From Candidatus Hermodarchaeota archaeon (GTDB lineage: Archaea > Asgardarchaeota > Hermodarchaeia > Hermodarchaeales > Hermodarchaeaceae): a stretch of 12,281 nucleotides of DNA. Position numbers and translations under genes: made by a program. Positions 1,607 through 11,697 of this stretch are shown here, piece after piece (the stretch's first letter is position 1; the number at the start of each line of letters is the position of its first letter). The notes beneath the pieces are model-generated. The model was not told the origin of the DNA. It was given only the letters and a program-made list of their open reading frames with translations, and did not search any database. The DNA is taken from the NCBI GenBank assembly GCA_016840595.1, contig JAEOSA010000041.1, positions 1 through 12,281 of the forward strand. Reading direction: 5' to 3'.

Positions 1607-1950
1607 CCTGTGAGCGTTACTCAGCTACTAGAGTGGATCAATTTAGCTAGGGAACACACTCTGGTGTTGCTCACTGAGTCGAACGGGTCCAACCATCTAT
1701 TAAATAGTGAAACAGCTTCAGAATAGTCTAGATATTTTCGATTTCTTATTTGCTTGATGAGAAGACGGAATATCCTGTTTGGTAAACCTATGTCCTTAAG
1801 TTTTATAGAGGATTTGTTTACTCGGTTTGAAATGTAAATTTATTTCCTAAAAGTTATGGCGAGTTGTGCATAATTAACTCAGACTGAACTTCTTAGTGAC
1901 TGATTTAAGGTGATACTTACTTTCACATGATTTGTGCCGATTGTGCAAAG
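1607..1950. other. intergenic region without a gene
   Basis: About 340 bases between the 206-aa gene and the dpp promoter. All frames are broken by frequent stops and I see no tRNA, riboswitch or repeat array. A T-rich stretch (about 1732-1749) could end transcription of the upstream gene. A small hairpin (AACAC/GTGTT, about 1651-1666) is too short to interpret. No substrate-binding protein gene or remnant is visible, although one is often found next to a Dpp-type operon. Confidence 0.6.
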
Positions 1951-1960
1951 CTTATAATAA
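1951..1960 (+). promoter_or_regulatory. TATA box of the dpp operon
   Basis: CTTATAATAA is a good archaeal TATA element with a purine-rich GCAAAG just upstream that could serve as BRE. Transcription would be expected to start about 25 bases downstream, near 1980. That fits the GTG start at 2012 with its own Shine-Dalgarno site, and argues against the upstream GTG at 1973, which would lie before the transcript begins. Confidence 0.5.
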
Positions 1961-1998
1961 ACGGTAACAGGAGTGCCAACGGCGTGCTTTGTAAGACT

Positions 1999-2003
1999 GG
2001 AGG
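1999..2003 (+). promoter_or_regulatory. Shine-Dalgarno site deciding the dppB start
   Basis: GGAGG lies eight bases before GTG 2012. The alternative in-frame GTG at 1973 has only a GGAG that runs into the start codon itself, so 2012 is preferred. Confidence 0.65.
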
Positions 2004-2011
2004 CATTACTG

Positions 2012-2980
2012 GTGGGCTTTCGCGAGTTCGTTCTACGACGAACCATTAATAGCTTCATTTTAGTCATTGCTGTAGTCATCTTTTGCTTCTTCGTCTTCCG
2101 CTTAATGCCTGGTGACGCATCCTCAATTCTCATTGGTGACTATTTTGACCCCCTCAGGGCTGAACAACTCCGAATGCTGTGGGGATTAGATCAGCCCCTC
2201 TTTGTTCAGTTTGGTCAATATATCATCAACATGTTCACTTTCAATTATGGCTACTCGTTCGTAGAAAGTCGACCAGTGATTGAAACTATTGTAGCCCGTC
2301 TTCCCAACACTCTCCTATTAACTGGTACTGCCGCTGTTATTACCATAATCCTTGGCATCGTTGCCGGCATCGCTGCTGCTACTCGACGAGGAAGCACAGC
2401 GGACAAAGGCATGGTGACAACGACTCTTGCCTTCTATTCAACACCTTCCTTTTGGTTAGGGATGATTTTCATACTTCTTTTTGCCACCTACCTTCCCCTC
2501 TTCCCAAAGAGAGGTACCGTCCATTCACCTGCTCCTGAAGATCCCCTCCTGTTTGCATTGTCCGTCGGTCATCATCTTATGTTGCCAGCATTTACTCTTG
2601 CCCTTGTTTCTTTTGGCGCGTACATGCTGGTAACACGGAACACACTTGTTGAAGTCATGTCAGAGGATTATATCCTCACAGCCCGTGCAAAGGGCGTGAA
2701 CGAAAACGCTGTTCTGTATAAGCACGCTATGCGGAATGCGATTCTTCCCCTGGTCTCTATGATTGCGTTAACCTTTGGGTTTCTCATAACTGGTGCAACG
2801 CTTACCGAGACGGTCTTTGACTGGTACGGAGTGGGACGACTCATTTTCGATTCCATCCAAGCTAGAGATTATCCCGTTCTACAAGCGATTTTCTTCATTC
2901 TCGCAATTGCGGTTATCATTGCCAACTTCATTGCTGATCTTCTCTATGGCTATCTTGATCCACGTGTCAGATTTGATTGA
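2012..2980 (+). CDS. dppB: Dpp/Opp-type ABC transporter permease, DppB subunit
   Basis: One of the two membrane subunits of a peptide- or oligosaccharide-type ABC importer. The 322 residues match normal family length. TM1 (about 10-31) is followed by the family hallmark RLMPGD (30-35). Further membrane segments lie near 100-124, 138-160, 188-208, 247-268 and 289-311. The cytoplasmic EAA loop (219-246, with ARAKG at 224-228 and ending ILP) couples to an ATPase. The C-terminus LDPRVRFD is typical of DppB. It is the first gene of a four-gene operon; the next start is 14 bases after its stop. The start is GTG 2012, chosen on Shine-Dalgarno and TATA spacing; in-frame GTG 1973 would add 13 residues. 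The substrate class cannot be read from sequence, since this family carries peptides, sugars and nickel. Confidence 0.92.
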   Translation: MGFREFVLRRTINSFILVIAVVIFCFFVFRLMPGDASSILIGDYFDPLRAEQLRMLWGLDQPLFVQFGQYIINMFTFNYGYSFVESRPVIETIVARLPNTLLLTGTAAVITIILGIVAGIAAATRRGSTADKGMVTTTLAFYSTPSFWLGMIFILLFATYLPLFPKRGTVHSPAPEDPLLFALSVGHHLMLPAFTLALVSFGAYMLVTRNTLVEVMSEDYILTARAKGVNENAVLYKHAMRNAILPLVSMIALTFGFLITGATLTETVFDWYGVGRLIFDSIQARDYPVLQAIFFILAIAVIIANFIADLLYGYLDPRVRFD

Positions 2981-2994
2981 AAACGGTGAAAAGC

Positions 2995-5070
2995 ATGACA
3001 AGAAGGGAAGAATATCGGCAACGGTTCTCGGGTTTCTGGAAAAAATATCGAAAAAACCGCAAGGGCATGGTTGGTCTCATTATCATCCTCTTTTTCCTGG
3101 CAATTGCACTGTTTGCACCACTCATCGCACCTTGGCCCGGTCCCGGATTTGCACCAGCCCTAGCCTTCCCCACCTGGCTGCTCCCATTACATCCAACAGG
3201 ATTTCAATCCATCCATCCGATAGAAAATTACCATTTCAACCAGGATGCAAATGGATGGCATTACAATGAGTCAGTTGACGGCATCGGGTATATCGTGGTG
3301 AACAATTCTCATTTCAATGATAATGCGGATGGTTGGGTATTTTCTGCTGATGGAGGTGGAGTATCAATTACAGATGCTTTTTACAGATCCACAACCGGTT
3401 CTGATCTCGTCGATGGGAGTGGTCCCGGTTGCTATACAATCCAATATTATGACTTACGTGACGATCTTGATTATGGACGTACAGATGCCTATTTTGATTA
3501 CAACTTCACCTTCGATGCAGATCGATATTCACCTGGATTGGCTAGCTTTTATCCCACCAGAGTATCCGTATCTTATAGCATCAGATTCATTATTGAAAAT
3601 AATGATATTATTCTTCCTGCGGCTAATGTCATTTTCAGCCTTGAAATAATAAATTCAAGTGGTCCACCAATTGAAATCTATTCCATTACATACCAAACCT
3701 CAGGAACTTTCGGATGGCATGCCAGAACAAAGAATATGCCTTCTGAAGATATTAGCTCCACTTTCACCACAACACAGAATATGACTCTACGATTCCATTT
3801 CGTTTTTCAAAATCACAATGCCGAAAACACCCCTTACATGAGGATTCACCTTGATGATCTCCAATGCAGCATCGAAAACTCATACACATACACAACCACA
3901 AATCCCCAAATTGAAGGGCAACACACAACACAGGATGGGAGCTATCTAACGGGTCCTGGAAGCTTCCGATTTTACTATACCGACACAGACAATTTATCAT
4001 ATTATATTTCGTCATCGGGTTGGATACAAACGAACATCACTTGGGACTACTATGACCGTCCCAAAACGGCTTATCTACGATATAATTACAAGATTGAAAA
4101 CCTGACTGCCTGGGGTGATGCAAAAATCCACATAATCCAAGAATGTTACGTTGAAGCGAATGGGTGGACCGAAGAGATCCTTCGCAGTGATGCCATCAAC
4201 GAAAACCGTGATTGGACCTCCTCTCCCGAATGGGCTTGGAACGATTTTATAATTTCAAATACTTTCGACCGGCGAGGAATCCTATGGATACGCCTTCGAA
4301 TCTTAATTACCGATCCAACACCAGAGGATACGCCCTCTTTCATCATTTTCCTTGATGATTGCACACTTGAGATTGTAGGGAATTATCATGGATTTCTCGG
4401 AGCAGGCCAAGAAGGGGAGGACATTTGGGCACAACTGCTCTGGGGTACACAAAATGCTTTTCGAGTCGCCATTATCGCAGCATTAATTGCCACCATTTCA
4501 GGACTTGTTGTTGGACTCATTGCGGGATACTATGGAGGAATAACAGACGAGATCTTATCGCGGCTTACTGATTTCTTCTTAATTATCCCGGGACTTGCCT
4601 TGATGATTGTATTAGCAGCAATTCTCCAACCCCGGTGGTGGAATATCGTCTGGATAATTGCGTTAATTGGGTGGACGAGTACAGCCCGTATAGTGCGATC
4701 CAAAGTCATTACCGAAAAACAACGGGCATATGTTGATGCCGCTCGTGCCATCGGAGCAAGCGATTTCTACATCATATCTAAACATATTCTTCCTATAGTA
4801 ATTCCCATTCTCTTCGCTCAATTCATTTTAGCTGCTGCCGGGGCACTACTTGCTGAGGCAGGTTTAGCATTCTTGGGTCTTACTCATCCATTAGATGTGA
4901 GTTGGGGTCGTATGTTAATGCAGGCGTTTCAATCAGGCGCTTCTTATATCGGCGCATGGTGGTATGTCTTCTTTCCTGGACTATGCATACTCTTTCTCGC
5001 ATTAGCCTTTACCCTCGTCGGTTACGCAATTGATGAAGTTCTCAATCTACCAGATCAAGTTCGGATTTAA
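2995..5070 (+). CDS. dppC: DppC-type ABC permease with giant extracytoplasmic insertion
   Basis: The second permease subunit, 691 residues against roughly 280-320 for the family. Order of parts: basic N-terminus typical of OppC_N; TM1 (about 25-46, ending APLIAPWP, the usual site before the outer loop); an inserted ectodomain (about 51-464); then the normal permease core resuming at HGFLGAGQEGEDIWAQLLWG (465-484), which corresponds to the usual GTDxxGRD loop. The remaining membrane segments follow, with an EAA loop at 578-600 (AARAIG, ending ILP). The insertion is in frame and free of stops, and the core on both sides is intact, so this is not a broken gene. It holds eight N-x-S/T sequons. 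I choose ATG 2995 because GGTGA lies five bases upstream; TTG 2977 would overlap dppB. The insertion may capture substrate or dock a binding protein, by analogy with the MalF P2 loop that contacts MalE. Confidence 0.9.
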   Translation: MTRREEYRQRFSGFWKKYRKNRKGMVGLIIILFFLAIALFAPLIAPWPGPGFAPALAFPTWLLPLHPTGFQSIHPIENYHFNQDANGWHYNESVDGIGYIVVNNSHFNDNADGWVFSADGGGVSITDAFYRSTTGSDLVDGSGPGCYTIQYYDLRDDLDYGRTDAYFDYNFTFDADRYSPGLASFYPTRVSVSYSIRFIIENNDIILPAANVIFSLEIINSSGPPIEIYSITYQTSGTFGWHARTKNMPSEDISSTFTTTQNMTLRFHFVFQNHNAENTPYMRIHLDDLQCSIENSYTYTTTNPQIEGQHTTQDGSYLTGPGSFRFYYTDTDNLSYYISSSGWIQTNITWDYYDRPKTAYLRYNYKIENLTAWGDAKIHIIQECYVEANGWTEEILRSDAINENRDWTSSPEWAWNDFIISNTFDRRGILWIRLRILITDPTPEDTPSFIIFLDDCTLEIVGNYHGFLGAGQEGEDIWAQLLWGTQNAFRVAIIAALIATISGLVVGLIAGYYGGITDEILSRLTDFFLIIPGLALMIVLAAILQPRWWNIVWIIALIGWTSTARIVRSKVITEKQRAYVDAARAIGASDFYIISKHILPIVIPILFAQFILAAAGALLAEAGLAFLGLTHPLDVSWGRMLMQAFQSGASYIGAWWYVFFPGLCILFLALAFTLVGYAIDEVLNLPDQVRI
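3232..3336 (+). repeat. short tandem protein repeat at the start of the ectodomain
   Basis: Residues 80-88 read HFNQDANGW and 106-114 read HFNDNADGW: six of nine identical, 26 residues apart. The second copy begins what looks like the first beta-sandwich module, so the first may be a partial duplication of a module start. Confidence 0.6.
3826..4386 (+). repeat. diverged module-end repeat in the DppC ectodomain
   Basis: The 20-residue segments at 278-297 (nucleotides 3826-3885) and 445-464 (4327-4386) share eight identical positions, with the core pattern TP-x4-I-x-LDD followed by I and a closing Y. Each would be the last strand of one module. The second ends exactly where the conserved permease core resumes, marking the insertion border. 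Confidence 0.6.
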
Positions 5071-5089
5071 TATGAAAAAGTGAAAACAG

Positions 5090-6067
5090 ATGGCAGTACT
5101 GGAGGTAAAAAATCTCAAAGCTTACTTTTTCAGTGAACGCGGTACTGTCAAAGCTGTTGACGACATCACCTTCGACTTGCAGCGTGGCGAAATCCTTGGC
5201 CTTGCCGGTGAATCGGGGTGTGGAAAATCCACTACAGCCTATGCCCTCCTCAATATTCTCCCAGAACCGGGACGCATTGTGGACGGATCGGTTGTCTTGG
5301 ATGGAGAGGATCTCACTCAGAAATCGCTCATTGAGTTACAGAAAATTCGCTGGGAAGAAATCTCAATGATTTTCCAGAACCCAAGAAGCGCTCTCAACCC
5401 CGTGTTACGGGTGGGCGACCAAATTGTGGAAGCAATTATGCTCCATGAAGACACAATCCCCGATGACGCCTGGAAACTCATGGAAGAACTCTTAGAAGTC
5501 GTCGGCATCGACCCCACCCTTGCCGTTAACTATCCTCATGAATTCACCACGGGTATGACCCAACGAATTATGATAGCGCTAGCCCTGGTCGCCAATCCAA
5601 AAATCCTCATCGCTGACGAACCAACCGCTAACCTTGATATTACAGTTGCAGTACAGCTCCTCCGACTTCTCAAAAATCTTCAAGAATACCTACGGCTTTC
5701 AATCATTCTCATAACAAATGACTTGGCAACTATAGCCGAAGCCTGTGACCGCGTCGCCATCATGTATGCTGGGCAAATCGTGGAACTTGCAGATGTTGAT
5801 ACCATATTCAAAGAGCAACTGCATCCATATACCGAGGGACTCATCCGTTCTATTCCTAGTTTACTAGGTTCTGAAGATCTGGTGTTCATTCCTGGATCAC
5901 CACCCGACCTGCTAACTCCACCATCAGGCTGTCGTTTTCATCCACGGTGTCCCATCGCTACCACTCTCTGCTCCAAAACACAACCCCAATATCGTGAGGT
6001 TAAAAAACGACATTTCATCGCCTGTCACCACGCCGACCAACTCTGGAGGAAAAACGTCTGGAAGTAA
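5090..6067 (+). CDS. dppD: Dpp/Opp-type ABC transporter ATPase, DppD subunit (atypical motifs)
   Basis: One of two cytoplasmic ATPases powering the importer; 325 residues, normal length. Walker A is GESGCGKST (40-48), the Q-loop is IFQNP with Q96, and Walker B is ILIADEP with catalytic E177. Two positions deviate. The signature, normally LSGGM, reads FTTGM (152-156), and the switch position, normally THD, reads TND (N210). The C-terminal oligopeptide domain has the conserved cysteines C281, C287, C294 and C312; in some Opp/Dpp ATPases this set is reported to hold an iron-sulfur cluster. ATG 5090 follows dppC by 19 bases and dppF follows by six, so the genes are one transcription unit. As the frame is clean and the protein full length, I read the changes as evolved rather than as decay. 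Confidence 0.92.
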   Translation: MAVLEVKNLKAYFFSERGTVKAVDDITFDLQRGEILGLAGESGCGKSTTAYALLNILPEPGRIVDGSVVLDGEDLTQKSLIELQKIRWEEISMIFQNPRSALNPVLRVGDQIVEAIMLHEDTIPDDAWKLMEELLEVVGIDPTLAVNYPHEFTTGMTQRIMIALALVANPKILIADEPTANLDITVAVQLLRLLKNLQEYLRLSIILITNDLATIAEACDRVAIMYAGQIVELADVDTIFKEQLHPYTEGLIRSIPSLLGSEDLVFIPGSPPDLLTPPSGCRFHPRCPIATTLCSKTQPQYREVKKRHFIACHHADQLWRKNVWK

Positions 6068-6073
6068 TCAACA

Positions 6074-7081
6074 ATGGTAGCGAAAGAGATTCTAATCAAA
6101 ATTCGTAACCTGAAAAAATACTTCCCTATCCCTCAGAGCCGTCTTTCATCACTGTTCCAACGTGAAAAATACTGGGTCCAATCGGTTGACGATATCTCCT
6201 TTGAAATCTATAAGAACGAGGTTTTCGTTCTCGCTGGTGAATCGGGATGCGGCAAAACCACCACTGGTCGTTTACTGCTCAACCTCATTCCACCAACTGA
6301 GGGGACGATTACATACGCTGGAAAGGCGTTAAACACACTCTCAGAGAAAGAAAAACATGAACTGCGTCCCAAACTCCAAATGGTCTACAAGGACCCATAC
6401 GATAGTCTGAATCCCCGAAAAAAGGTCTTTGATACTGTTGCTGAAGGTCTAAGAGTCCACAAATTAGTAGACAAAAAAGATGTGTTGTTTTTCAGAATTA
6501 GACAAGCCCTCGAGGATGTAAATCTCATCCCTCCCGAACACTTCTTCACGAAACTACCACATATGCTCAGTGGTGGACAACGGCAGCGTGTCGCCATTGC
6601 CCGGGCAATTTCCACACGACCAGAATTCCTCGTTACCGACGAGCCCGTCTCGATGCTCGACGCCTCAATTCGAATAGCCATCCTACAATTACTCAAAAAT
6701 CTCATTGACAAACACAATCTCACGTGCCTGTACATAACAGGGGACCTTGCATCCGCACGATACATAGGAGATCGGATTGCCATCATGTATCTTGGCAAAA
6801 TTGTCGAATATGGACCTGTTAGTCGTGTCATCGATAACCCCAAACACCAATATACCGCCCTGTTAATCTCCTCCGAGCCGATTCCTGATCCAACAATCGA
6901 CCATCTACGACAAACCCCTGTTGGTGAAGTACCCTTTCCTGTTTTTCCACCTGCTGGGTGCCGATTCCACACTCGATGCATAATGGCTGATGAAAGATGT
7001 CATATAGAAGAACCTTCTTTTGAAGAGGTTGAAAAAAATCATTTCGTTGCCTGCTGGCACTGGTTCGATTCCACTCAGTGA
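6074..7081 (+). CDS. dppF: Dpp/Opp-type ABC transporter ATPase, DppF subunit (atypical motifs)
   Basis: The partner ATPase, 335 residues. Walker A is GESGCGKTT (55-63), the signature is intact LSGGQ (165-169), and Walker B is FLVTDEP with E190. The Q-loop, usually FQDP, reads YKDP, so Lys106 replaces Gln. The switch position, usually SHD or THD, reads TGD, so Gly223 replaces His. The D-loop is SMLD rather than SALD. The C-terminal Cys set is present (C296, C302, C309, C327). Since each ATP site combines Walker A, Q and switch residues of one subunit with the signature of the other, the DppF Walker site pairs with the degenerate DppD signature and should hydrolyse poorly, while the DppD Walker site pairs with a normal LSGGQ. 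Last gene of the operon; ATG 6074 is the first good start after the dppD stop. Confidence 0.92.
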   Translation: MVAKEILIKIRNLKKYFPIPQSRLSSLFQREKYWVQSVDDISFEIYKNEVFVLAGESGCGKTTTGRLLLNLIPPTEGTITYAGKALNTLSEKEKHELRPKLQMVYKDPYDSLNPRKKVFDTVAEGLRVHKLVDKKDVLFFRIRQALEDVNLIPPEHFFTKLPHMLSGGQRQRVAIARAISTRPEFLVTDEPVSMLDASIRIAILQLLKNLIDKHNLTCLYITGDLASARYIGDRIAIMYLGKIVEYGPVSRVIDNPKHQYTALLISSEPIPDPTIDHLRQTPVGEVPFPVFPPAGCRFHTRCIMADERCHIEEPSFEEVEKNHFVACWHWFDSTQ

Positions 7082-7299
7082 GAAGTTGAATAGCTCCCAG
7101 TTATGTTTAAGAATCGCCTGTTCATGAAATTTTAATTACTTTTGAAGAGATTAAAAATACTCACAAGTACAGGTTTGGCATTGTCAGCATATTTGTCTTC
7201 GAAACCCAATAGAAAAGCAAATAACAGCAGGAAAAACGGCATGCTCGAACCTTAAGAAGCAACAGATTCGATTTGGTTAGGTCTTCAACATGTGAAAGA

Positions 7300-7725
7300 T
7301 CACAGATTTTCGACATGCTTTAGAATGCATTCTATAAACCGTTTGATATCTGTTAATTCCGTTTTTACGAATTCTAAAACTCGGACATTATCGACTTTCC
7401 CATAACTATGAACAAGCAAATTTCTAAATCGAGCCATGTCTGCCAGTTTTGCTGCGAGTTTAGAGGGAAGAAGTTTCTGTGTTGCAAGAATTTCAAAAAT
7501 CTCTGCATAGCTCTCTGCACGTTCGAAGTTTCTTGCAACCGAGATATGCGAAGCCAGGTCAATACACGCCTCAATAATTTCAAGCAATGAATACTTGACG
7601 GCCTGAACATCCTTGTAACTTTGAAGAAAATCCTTCTCGGTTATCTCCTTATATGCCGCAAGGAATTCTAAATTTCTCTCGATGATGTCCATTTTTCCTT
7701 GAATCATTGCCTTATCGATTGACAT
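7300..7725 (-). CDS. hepT: HepT-like HEPN toxin (DUF86 family)
   Basis: A 141-residue all-helical HEPN protein. The active-site motif RX4HXY is present as RNLLVHSY, with R101, H106 and Y108 near the C-terminus, as in HepT ribonuclease toxins. In characterised pairs the cognate MntA adds AMP to the tyrosine of this motif and so silences the toxin. The ATG at 7725 is preceded by GGAGGG six bases upstream, inside the end of the mntA frame, and the two genes overlap by 14 bases, so translation is probably coupled with the antitoxin made first. Residues look intact, so activity is plausible. Role (defence, persistence or plasmid-like stabilisation) is not decided by sequence. Confidence 0.88.
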   Translation of the reverse strand: MSIDKAMIQGKMDIIERNLEFLAAYKEITEKDFLQSYKDVQAVKYSLLEIIEACIDLASHISVARNFERAESYAEIFEILATQKLLPSKLAAKLADMARFRNLLVHSYGKVDNVRVLEFVKTELTDIKRFIECILKHVENL

Positions 7726-8113
7726 ATTGTGCCCTCCGGTGTTCCTCGAACAAGTCGTGGTATGGCTTGAAATCCATATATTGGGTCAAGATGCGTTGCT
7801 CAAATCTGATCCGGTGTTGTTCATCTCGCACAAAAACCACCCTAGCACCCTGTAGGATGTAAAAAAGGAAACGTAAAGAGCGGCCATTTAGAATCCGGAT
7901 ATCAAAGGACTTTCCCAACTCCTTCTCAAATTGCCCTGCCAGTCGAGCTTCATACAATGCATCTGGTGTAAAATTTTCTTCCAGTAACAGACCTATATCA
8001 ACATCATGGTAAATTTTACTTTTTAGGAATGACCCAAACACGTAAGCTACGCTGACCTCGGGGTGGTCTGTAAAAACCCGATCAGCTACATCCTGGATAT
8101 TTTTAATCATCAT
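7712..8113 (-). CDS. mntA: MntA-like nucleotidyltransferase antitoxin
   Basis: A 133-residue minimal nucleotidyltransferase of the pol-beta fold. The catalytic motif is GS (27-28), then D37-x-D39 in HDVDIGLL; D71 in FDIRIL fits the third carboxylate. The spacing between GS and DxD is eight residues, slightly shorter than the ten often quoted for MntA. In the family this enzyme AMPylates HepT. I take ATG 8113 (second choice GTG 8116) because the protein then has family length and a GAGGAG lies about 15 bases upstream. The open frame extends to 8239, but those extra residues look non-coding. It overlaps hepT by 14 bases, which supports a toxin-antitoxin operon. Confidence 0.85.
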   Translation of the reverse strand: MMIKNIQDVADRVFTDHPEVSVAYVFGSFLKSKIYHDVDIGLLLEENFTPDALYEARLAGQFEKELGKSFDIRILNGRSLRFLFYILQGARVVFVRDEQHRIRFEQRILTQYMDFKPYHDLFEEHRRAQYVNR

Positions 8114-8269
8114 CACGCAAGCATTCAACTCCTCACTTATAAACAGTATTCTTGAAATTATCAAGGTCTCTATATCCTGCCTAATAATTAGTTGAAAATT
8201 CCCTGTTCTGCAAAACAAACTTGTCTTCGACACTTGCATAGACTTGCAGATAACCCCAAAATATTTCTG

Positions 8270-11172: not shown

Positions 11173-11697
11173 CTAGAGTTCCAGTTTGTCAATGATGGCT
11201 TGGGTAATAGTTTCAAAAGCTTCGTCAATCCCTTCCCCATTCATTGCACTTGTTTCTACATATTTACATCCGTAGCGTTCAATCCATGATTCAATATCTG
11301 CTTCTTTCACTACCCGTTTCTTCTTGGCATCTGCCTTGTTGCCAACTAAAAGGACTACAACATCACCGGCGTTTTCTTTGACTTCACGCATCCATGCCTC
11401 AACGGCTTCGAGTGTATCAATTCGTGTTAGATCAAAAACGATCATGGCGCCATCAGTTTGTTTATAGAAACTAGATCGATAGGGTGCAAATCGCTCCTGA
11501 CTGGCAATATCCCAAATAATGAGTCGGCTTACCTTCTCTCCTACTTCAACGATTTTGTAAGCAAAATCGACACCAATAGAGGCTTTGTATTCCCTTTCAA
11601 ACCTGTTTTCGACATACTTGAGGATAATACTAGTCTTCCCGACGGCAGGGTCGCCGACAAGGAGAATCTTGAACTCATAGTAAGGTTGCTTTGCCAT
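11173..11697 (-). CDS. Ras/Rab-like small GTPase (eukaryote-like)
   Basis: 174 residues covering a complete small-GTPase fold. G1 is GDPAVGKT (15-22). Switch I is YKASIGVDF, with S40 at the position of the invariant Thr of Rab. G3 is WDIASQERF, with D63 and Q67 kept but Ser66 replacing the conserved Gly. G4 is NKAD (120-123) and G5 is ETSA (148-151). The order and wording (SIGVDF, WDxAxQERF, FDLT) are closest to the Rab/Ras branch of eukaryote-like GTPases that are abundant in Asgard archaea. There is no C-terminal Cys, so no prenyl anchor is expected. ATG 11697 has GGGTG seven bases upstream and a TATA box at 11734-11741. No GAP, GEF or roadblock gene is present nearby. Confidence 0.93.
   Translation of the reverse strand: MAKQPYYEFKILLVGDPAVGKTSIILKYVENRFEREYKASIGVDFAYKIVEVGEKVSRLIIWDIASQERFAPYRSSFYKQTDGAMIVFDLTRIDTLEAVEAWMREVKENAGDVVVLLVGNKADAKKKRVVKEADIESWIERYGCKYVETSAMNGEGIDEAFETITQAIIDKLEL

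Follow-up and report, generated by a model that had tools for sequence, protein, structure and literature searches.

The window considered here, that is, the whole analysed stretch of 12,281 nucleotides (contig JAEOSA010000041.1, from Candidatus Hermodarchaeota archaeon), contains at positions 2012-7081 one operon, dppB-dppC-dppD-dppF, in which all four genes are intact. The subject of this analysis is dppC, whose product carries a large built-in ectodomain between its first and second transmembrane segments (TM1 and TM2). The genes of the operon and the parts of DppC are as follows.

2012..2980, plus strand: dppB, permease subunit with BPD_transp_1 (E 1e-43) and BPD_transp_1_N, within an open reading frame (ORF) at 1973-2980
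2995..5070, plus strand: dppC, permease subunit of 691 aa with a built-in ectodomain
3031..3138, plus strand: OppC_N (Pfam PF12911), the basic cytoplasmic stretch and TM1 of DppC (residues 13-48)
3133..3201, plus strand: conserved linker rich in Pro and Trp that follows TM1 (about residues 47-69), from the alignment
3202..3888, plus strand: ectodomain D1 (about residues 70-298), a predicted beta jelly-roll whose compact part starts near residue 97
3889..4392, plus strand: ectodomain D2, second predicted beta jelly-roll and probable duplicate of D1 (about residues 299-466), from the D1-D2 profile comparison and a tandem CBM22 fold match
4501..5034, plus strand: permease core BPD_transp_1 (residues 503-680), from Pfam and a Foldseek match to E. 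coli DppC (8z1w_B, E 2.4e-11)
5090..6067, plus strand: dppD, ATPase with ABC_tran and oligo_HPY
6074..7081, plus strand: dppF, ATPase with ABC_tran and oligo_HPY

The start of dppB is probably the GTG at 2012, as judged from a GGAGG upstream and from relatives that begin M-G-x-REF. The dppC gene starts at ATG 2995 (the mechanical ORF begins at TTG 2977) and its reading frame is free of stops. Both of its permease domains score above their Pfam cut-offs (OppC_N, 39.4 bits against 23.9; BPD_transp_1, 88.5 against 26.4; Pfam numbering is off by one because the scan omitted the first Met), and the operon supplies a B subunit and two oligo_HPY ATPases; the protein is thus a genuine Dpp/Opp-type C-subunit permease. 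No named NCBIfam subtype (Opp4C, DppC, NikC, or others) is reached, the best being Opp4C at 203.9 bits with a cut-off of 350. The core is matched by 14 curated NCBIfam C-subunit models, with lengths of 236-341 positions.

Between the two permease domains lie about 400 residues that have no counterpart in E. coli. In a phmmer comparison residues 13-61 align with 21-71 of E. coli DppC (8z1v_B), a stretch that is weak taken alone (i-E 0.009), and residues 465-683 with 78-294, leaving only 6 E. coli residues opposite the insertion. TM1 shows a hydropathy peak of 3.0 at residues 26-44 and is followed by the linker, in which W61 is identical in 35/35 aligned rows and which is modelled at low confidence (residues 41-68). 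The insert proper, about 420 residues, is soluble, with a highest 19-residue Kyte-Doolittle mean of 1.36 and consequently no transmembrane segment. It lies outside the cell, since TM1 leads outward from a basic N-terminus. Across 35 proteins the inserts contain 278 N-x-S/T sites (1.87 per 100 residues), against 153 in shuffles, and the permease cores of the same proteins contain 38 (0.49 per 100 residues). The original prediction, made from the letters of the window, had described a DppC core on both sides of a large, in-frame, stop-free outer domain that replaces a short loop, soluble and rich in beta structure; Pfam, phmmer, hydropathy, and the all-beta predicted model bear this out, and its coordinates, 3145-4386 (residues 51-464), are correct within a few residues.

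The insert is a regular part of a family of permeases. An insert-only search finds 15 proteins at E <= 4e-79, and an insert profile search, with candidates limited to 235-747 aa, finds 37 at E <= 2.1e-98: 34 are 672-720 aa long (33-92% identity, 96-100% coverage), P0015 has 486 aa, and the two short matches (P0035 and P0037; 304 and 279 aa) sit on contigs of 1,081 and 2,243 bases. A permease-family Pfam domain is present in 36/37 (the exception being P0037), none of the 37, within that size range, is the insert as a separate protein, and the fusion stands at one place in 35/35 aligned proteins. The carriers come from independent metagenome-assembled genomes (MAGs) and collections. GC content at third codon positions is 0.39 in the insert and 0.38 in the permease core. 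For one pair, the window and locus L001, the ratio of nonsynonymous to synonymous substitution rates (dN/dS) is 0.21 in the insert and 0.06 in the core, and at the level of sequence both parts seem to evolve under purifying selection, which is looser in the insert.

An AlphaFold model of the full chain, built from 35 sequences, has a mean predicted local distance difference test score (pLDDT) of 71.6, the insert lying mostly at 80-92. In this model the insert is all-beta and consists of two tandem jelly-rolls, with the jelly-roll fold by which carbohydrate-binding module (CBM) families CBM4, CBM9, and CBM22 are recognized. Profile comparison of D1 with D2 gives a probability of 99.6 (E 7e-24, 21% identity over 158 columns), and the fold search returns the tandem CBM22 structure 4xup_D at E 2.9e-8 over 408 columns; CBM4-2, CBM61, CBM16, and CBM11 are, with the CBM22 tandem, among the best non-permease fold matches. 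Taken together, the identity of the permease, the fold, and the duplication are very probable, the insert comprising two tandem jelly-rolls of CBM4/CBM22/MAM type born of an internal duplication. The single built-in domain first proposed has to be replaced by a duplicated pair. By sequence, there is no Pfam match of any kind between OppC_N and BPD_transp_1 of the window protein at E <= 0.01; no CBM family is found in it at that threshold or in 7 family members at E <= 10 (with filters that drop most weak matches), and no binding-protein family of Pfam matches the insert in any of these proteins.

The insert is found in several genomes. A search of genome contigs recovers four loci, three titled Hermodarchaeum or Hermodarchaeota and one Hermod_104; in the closest, L001, the insert is 91% identical to that of the window. 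The 91% identical insert, from a MAG named Candidatus Hermodarchaeum yapensis, supports the Asgard origin implied at first. Among 227 genomes of the phylum 7 have an insert match (E <= 1e-5), none with an internal stop, in a search that starts with a loose first look and can miss more distant forms. The organism names given by the sources are Hodarchaeota and Promethearchaeota for insert matches and Hermodarchaeia for a paralogue search (7 matches). The dppBCDF block of the window (1909-7204) is 92.8% identical to L001 8780-14071, and synteny breaks at both ends; window 7194-8230 also matches L001 19673-20720 (83%).

The length of the TM1-TM2 loop was surveyed in 78 Asgard regions with DppC-type genes, giving 91 ORFs that include L001-L004, L035, L036, and the window. 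Loops were measured from the last transmembrane segment before the core to the core, and rows were picked by similarity and size, so that shares are not population figures. A single transmembrane segment followed by a soluble loop of 199-445 residues is present in 56/91 ORFs; plain DppC rows have loops of 28-41 residues in 10/11 (102 in L061). In a tree built from the permease core without the insert (89 rows, some joins involving long branches), eight rows with loops of 429-445 residues form a clade (support 100/99) that adjoins 26 rows with loops of 249-275 (joint support 99/91). With 11 more rows (loops 222-323) they make up a single Asgard clade of 45 rows (95/85), in which L093 has extra transmembrane segments before the loop and L100 is cut by a contig end. 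By profile comparison the 230-residue loop class is related to the window insert (probability 82-91); it is also related to the 260 class (94.7) and to the loop of L051, which has 222 residues (98.5). A plain relative, L079 (genome G008, 308 aa), has a loop of 29 residues and a core 54% identical to that of the window; its position outside the 45-row clade fits gain of the ectodomain in the ancestor of that clade.

Other soluble loops occur elsewhere in the tree, of 291-300 residues (4 rows) and 344-387 residues (4 rows), and in L105, L114, and L048. In the 344-387 class L108:1581-3623 has an FG-GAP-type ectodomain in the TM1-TM2 loop that exceeds the Pfam cut-off (39.9 and 39.5 bits); the FG-GAP match in L038:2137-4065 is below it, and L039:3811-5736 and L109:36-1979 are assigned by kinship alone. 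One common origin of all 56 loop-bearing rows (45 + 11) is rejected by the approximately unbiased test (AU p 4e-49), and at least 6 state changes are needed on the core tree (8 if four rows with extra transmembrane segments and a long loop are counted as loop-bearing). Therefore the DppC loop has been filled several times. The window insert is, contrary to what had been implied, no isolated oddity: the 45-row clade has a loop ectodomain, and other Asgard DppC lineages have gained different ones in the same loop. Two further kinds of long permease were observed in the survey. Ten DppC ORFs are long because of extra transmembrane segments, with 4-11 hydrophobic segments ahead of the core, and not because of a soluble loop (L106:1632-3671, L107:1616-3652, L040:1609-3879, L049:4420-5988, L063:3299-4858, L046:933-2522, L047:3228-4724, L070:956-2488, L054:3461-4801, and L055:3312-4646). 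DppB and DppC are fused in one chain of about 910-930 residues in L094:839-3574, which has two BPD_transp_1 stretches, BPD_transp_1_N at the start, and a sub-threshold OppC_N in mid-chain; L095, L096, and L097 are likewise fusions as judged from size and number of transmembrane segments only.

Genes around the insert-bearing operons suit peptide use. The hydantoinase/oxoprolinase genes hyuAB are present in 5/7 loci (at the remaining two the contig ends too near the operon), and large secreted subtilases lie downstream of the importer operon in 2/7; neither hyuAB nor a subtilase is within the 12 kb of the window. The two subtilases are the following.

L002:5950-10968: subtilase of 1672 aa
L067:14724-18119: subtilase of at least 1131 aa, truncated where the stretch ends

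A small membrane-anchored protein is encoded divergently from dppB in 5/7 loci (L067:7597-8130, L004:5498-6016, L064:1055-1639, L065:11366-12028, and L066:4094-4675); that of L067 has a weak Lamin Tail Domain match (E 0.0035), and the protein is a possible partner of the importer. Downstream of the operon in the window, on the minus strand, are a gene pair for HepT-like (PF01934) and nucleotidyltransferase (Polbeta, PF18765) proteins at 7300-8239, which we take to be arranged as in HEPN-MNT toxin-antitoxin systems, and a Ras-family small GTPase at 11173-11697 (PF00071, 164 bits), such GTPases being usual in Asgard archaea.

How might the ectodomain serve the importer? Direct substrate binding, docking of a binding protein, and anchoring to the surface, the three roles first proposed, all stay candidates. 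The outer TM1-TM2 loop with its predicted double jelly-roll emerges from the membrane at the pore's outer rim, at a position in DppC that mirrors the scoop motif of DppB. There it could act as a docking and capture arm, keeping beside the pore either a binding protein provided in trans or the (glyco)peptide cargo of that protein, much as the P2 loop of MalF may work with MalE, and the import cycle would stay binding-protein-dependent as in E. coli Dpp. In E. coli the scoop motif, the loop of DppB that corresponds to the DppC loop, fills the DppA cleft (PMC12136057). Alignment to E. coli DppB indicates that the window DppB keeps the TM1-TM2 scoop region, as do, judged by eye, the DppB proteins of 6 relatives, which speaks for the keeping of a binding protein. 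Genes of the cluster C binding-protein family PF00496 account for 51 match rows in the 7 genomes (often two per gene; 50 over the cut-off), all of them away from the contig of the insert-bearing dppC (0/51; contigs of 7-113 kb); genome G001 has about eight long PF00496 ORFs. PF00496 genes lie no more than about 3.5 kb from the 230-residue-loop paralogues of genomes G001, G002, and G003, and a related ectodomain therefore coexists with a binding protein. On these grounds the arm is favored over another role, tentatively and at somewhat less than even odds.

Several points weigh against this account. The model of the insert alone, built from 5 sequences, is poor (pLDDT 55), the CBM22 tandem is matched at low TM-scores (0.16 and 0.28, with a root-mean-square deviation of 17), and a shared jelly-roll fold, itself predicted, says nothing certain on the ligand. 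The E. coli scoop residues E41 and R42 are D and Y in the window DppB, the first a like (acidic) residue and the second not alike. No partner was found, the operon being without a binding-protein gene and its supply in trans being inferred, and a 222-residue-loop paralogue on contig G001:C58 is also without a PF00496 gene on its contig. For the explanation as a whole, a genuine Dpp/Opp C subunit with a double jelly-roll arm that serves a binding protein supplied in trans, we put the probability at about 0.5.

The domains might instead be true CBMs that hold glycans at the pore, whether as surface sugars, as glycopeptides, or as oligosaccharide substrates, which we consider unlikely, if the least so of the alternatives. 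The CBM structures among the best fold matches favor it, as do a sub-threshold CBM_4_9 match in the loop of L048 (16.1 bits, cut-off 25.9) and six aromatic residues identical in 35/35 rows (W88, W114, Y169, W350, Y363, and W407), candidates for a sugar-binding cleft. Somewhat less probable is a substrate receptor that replaces the binding protein altogether, making a type I importer without a separate one. It would account for the absence of a PF00496 gene both from the 13 window proteins scanned and from 7/7 contigs, several of which are however short, and for fusion at the same place in every aligned protein. It sits poorly with the retained scoop region, with a predicted fold that is all-beta rather than that of a two-lobed binding protein, with the 230-class versions near binding-protein genes, and with E. 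coli DppBCDF, which is inactive without DppA (PMC12136057). An equally doubtful alternative is that the ectodomain anchors the importer to the surface coat or to a protease at the surface, which would bring cleavage products to the pore. Both the downstream subtilases and the divergent membrane-anchored protein would suit such an anchor, but no subtilase was found in the window or in the flanking sequence retrieved for the other 5 loci, where two of the contigs stop inside the operon and a third stops 1.8 kb beyond it. More doubtful still is the broader proposal that the double jelly-roll is a receptor without a separate binding protein and that the TM1-TM2 loop of Asgard DppC is a general slot for varied outer receptor domains, filled several times. 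An origin of the long frame by chimeric assembly or gene decay can be dismissed, being already refuted by the homologues (independent MAGs, 34 long homologues, dN/dS of 0.21, and zero stops in 7/7 genome matches) with nothing found in its favor; L079, a relative without the region, groups elsewhere, and many homologues keep it.

Binding-protein-dependent importers are usually assumed to consist of a bare permease and a separate receptor. In Asgard peptide importers a single loop of the permease bears large outer domains that fall, by sequence, into at least three kinds (FG-GAP type, jelly-roll, and unnamed), one of which extends across an entire subfamily and is present in duplicate in Hermodarchaeia. 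Receptor function obscured by the annotation "ABC transporter permease" could be sought there, and a testable question is raised as to how peptide-using relatives of eukaryotes capture peptides at the cell surface.

Among known systems, the solved C subunits of E. coli DppABCDF and OppABCDF and of Mycobacterium tuberculosis DppABCD and OppABCD (five distinct sequences matched in the PDB) have 287-302 residues, whereas the window DppC has 691 and its operon lacks a binding-protein gene. OpuA and GlnPQ hold an outer two-lobed binding domain covalently at the end of the permease chain, and OpuA with its docked domain (7ahh) is among the fold-search matches; the window ectodomain is instead internal, predicted to be all-beta, and without a binding-protein family match. 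Like the window DppC, the maltose importer of E. coli has a soluble domain set into the outer side of a type I permease, namely MalF P2, which has an activating role. P2 is given as 180 aa long and as lying between TM3 and TM4 of a permease with eight TM segments, its function being called unknown (PMC2246101), and is placed around MalE (PMC8134467). The likeness rests on size, site, and that placement around MalE; as originally proposed, the architecture differs, the window insert being about 420 aa long, between TM1 and TM2, in another permease family, and probably a double jelly-roll. Unlike the jelly-rolls of CBM4/CBM9/CBM22 and MAM, these domains lie inside a membrane protein and have no CBM sequence match at the thresholds used. 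No DppC with such a built-in ectodomain was found described in the open literature searched, a search outside which most subscription journals fall. With architecture and fold well supported, the window DppC is a novel variant within a known importer type, not a new type of system.
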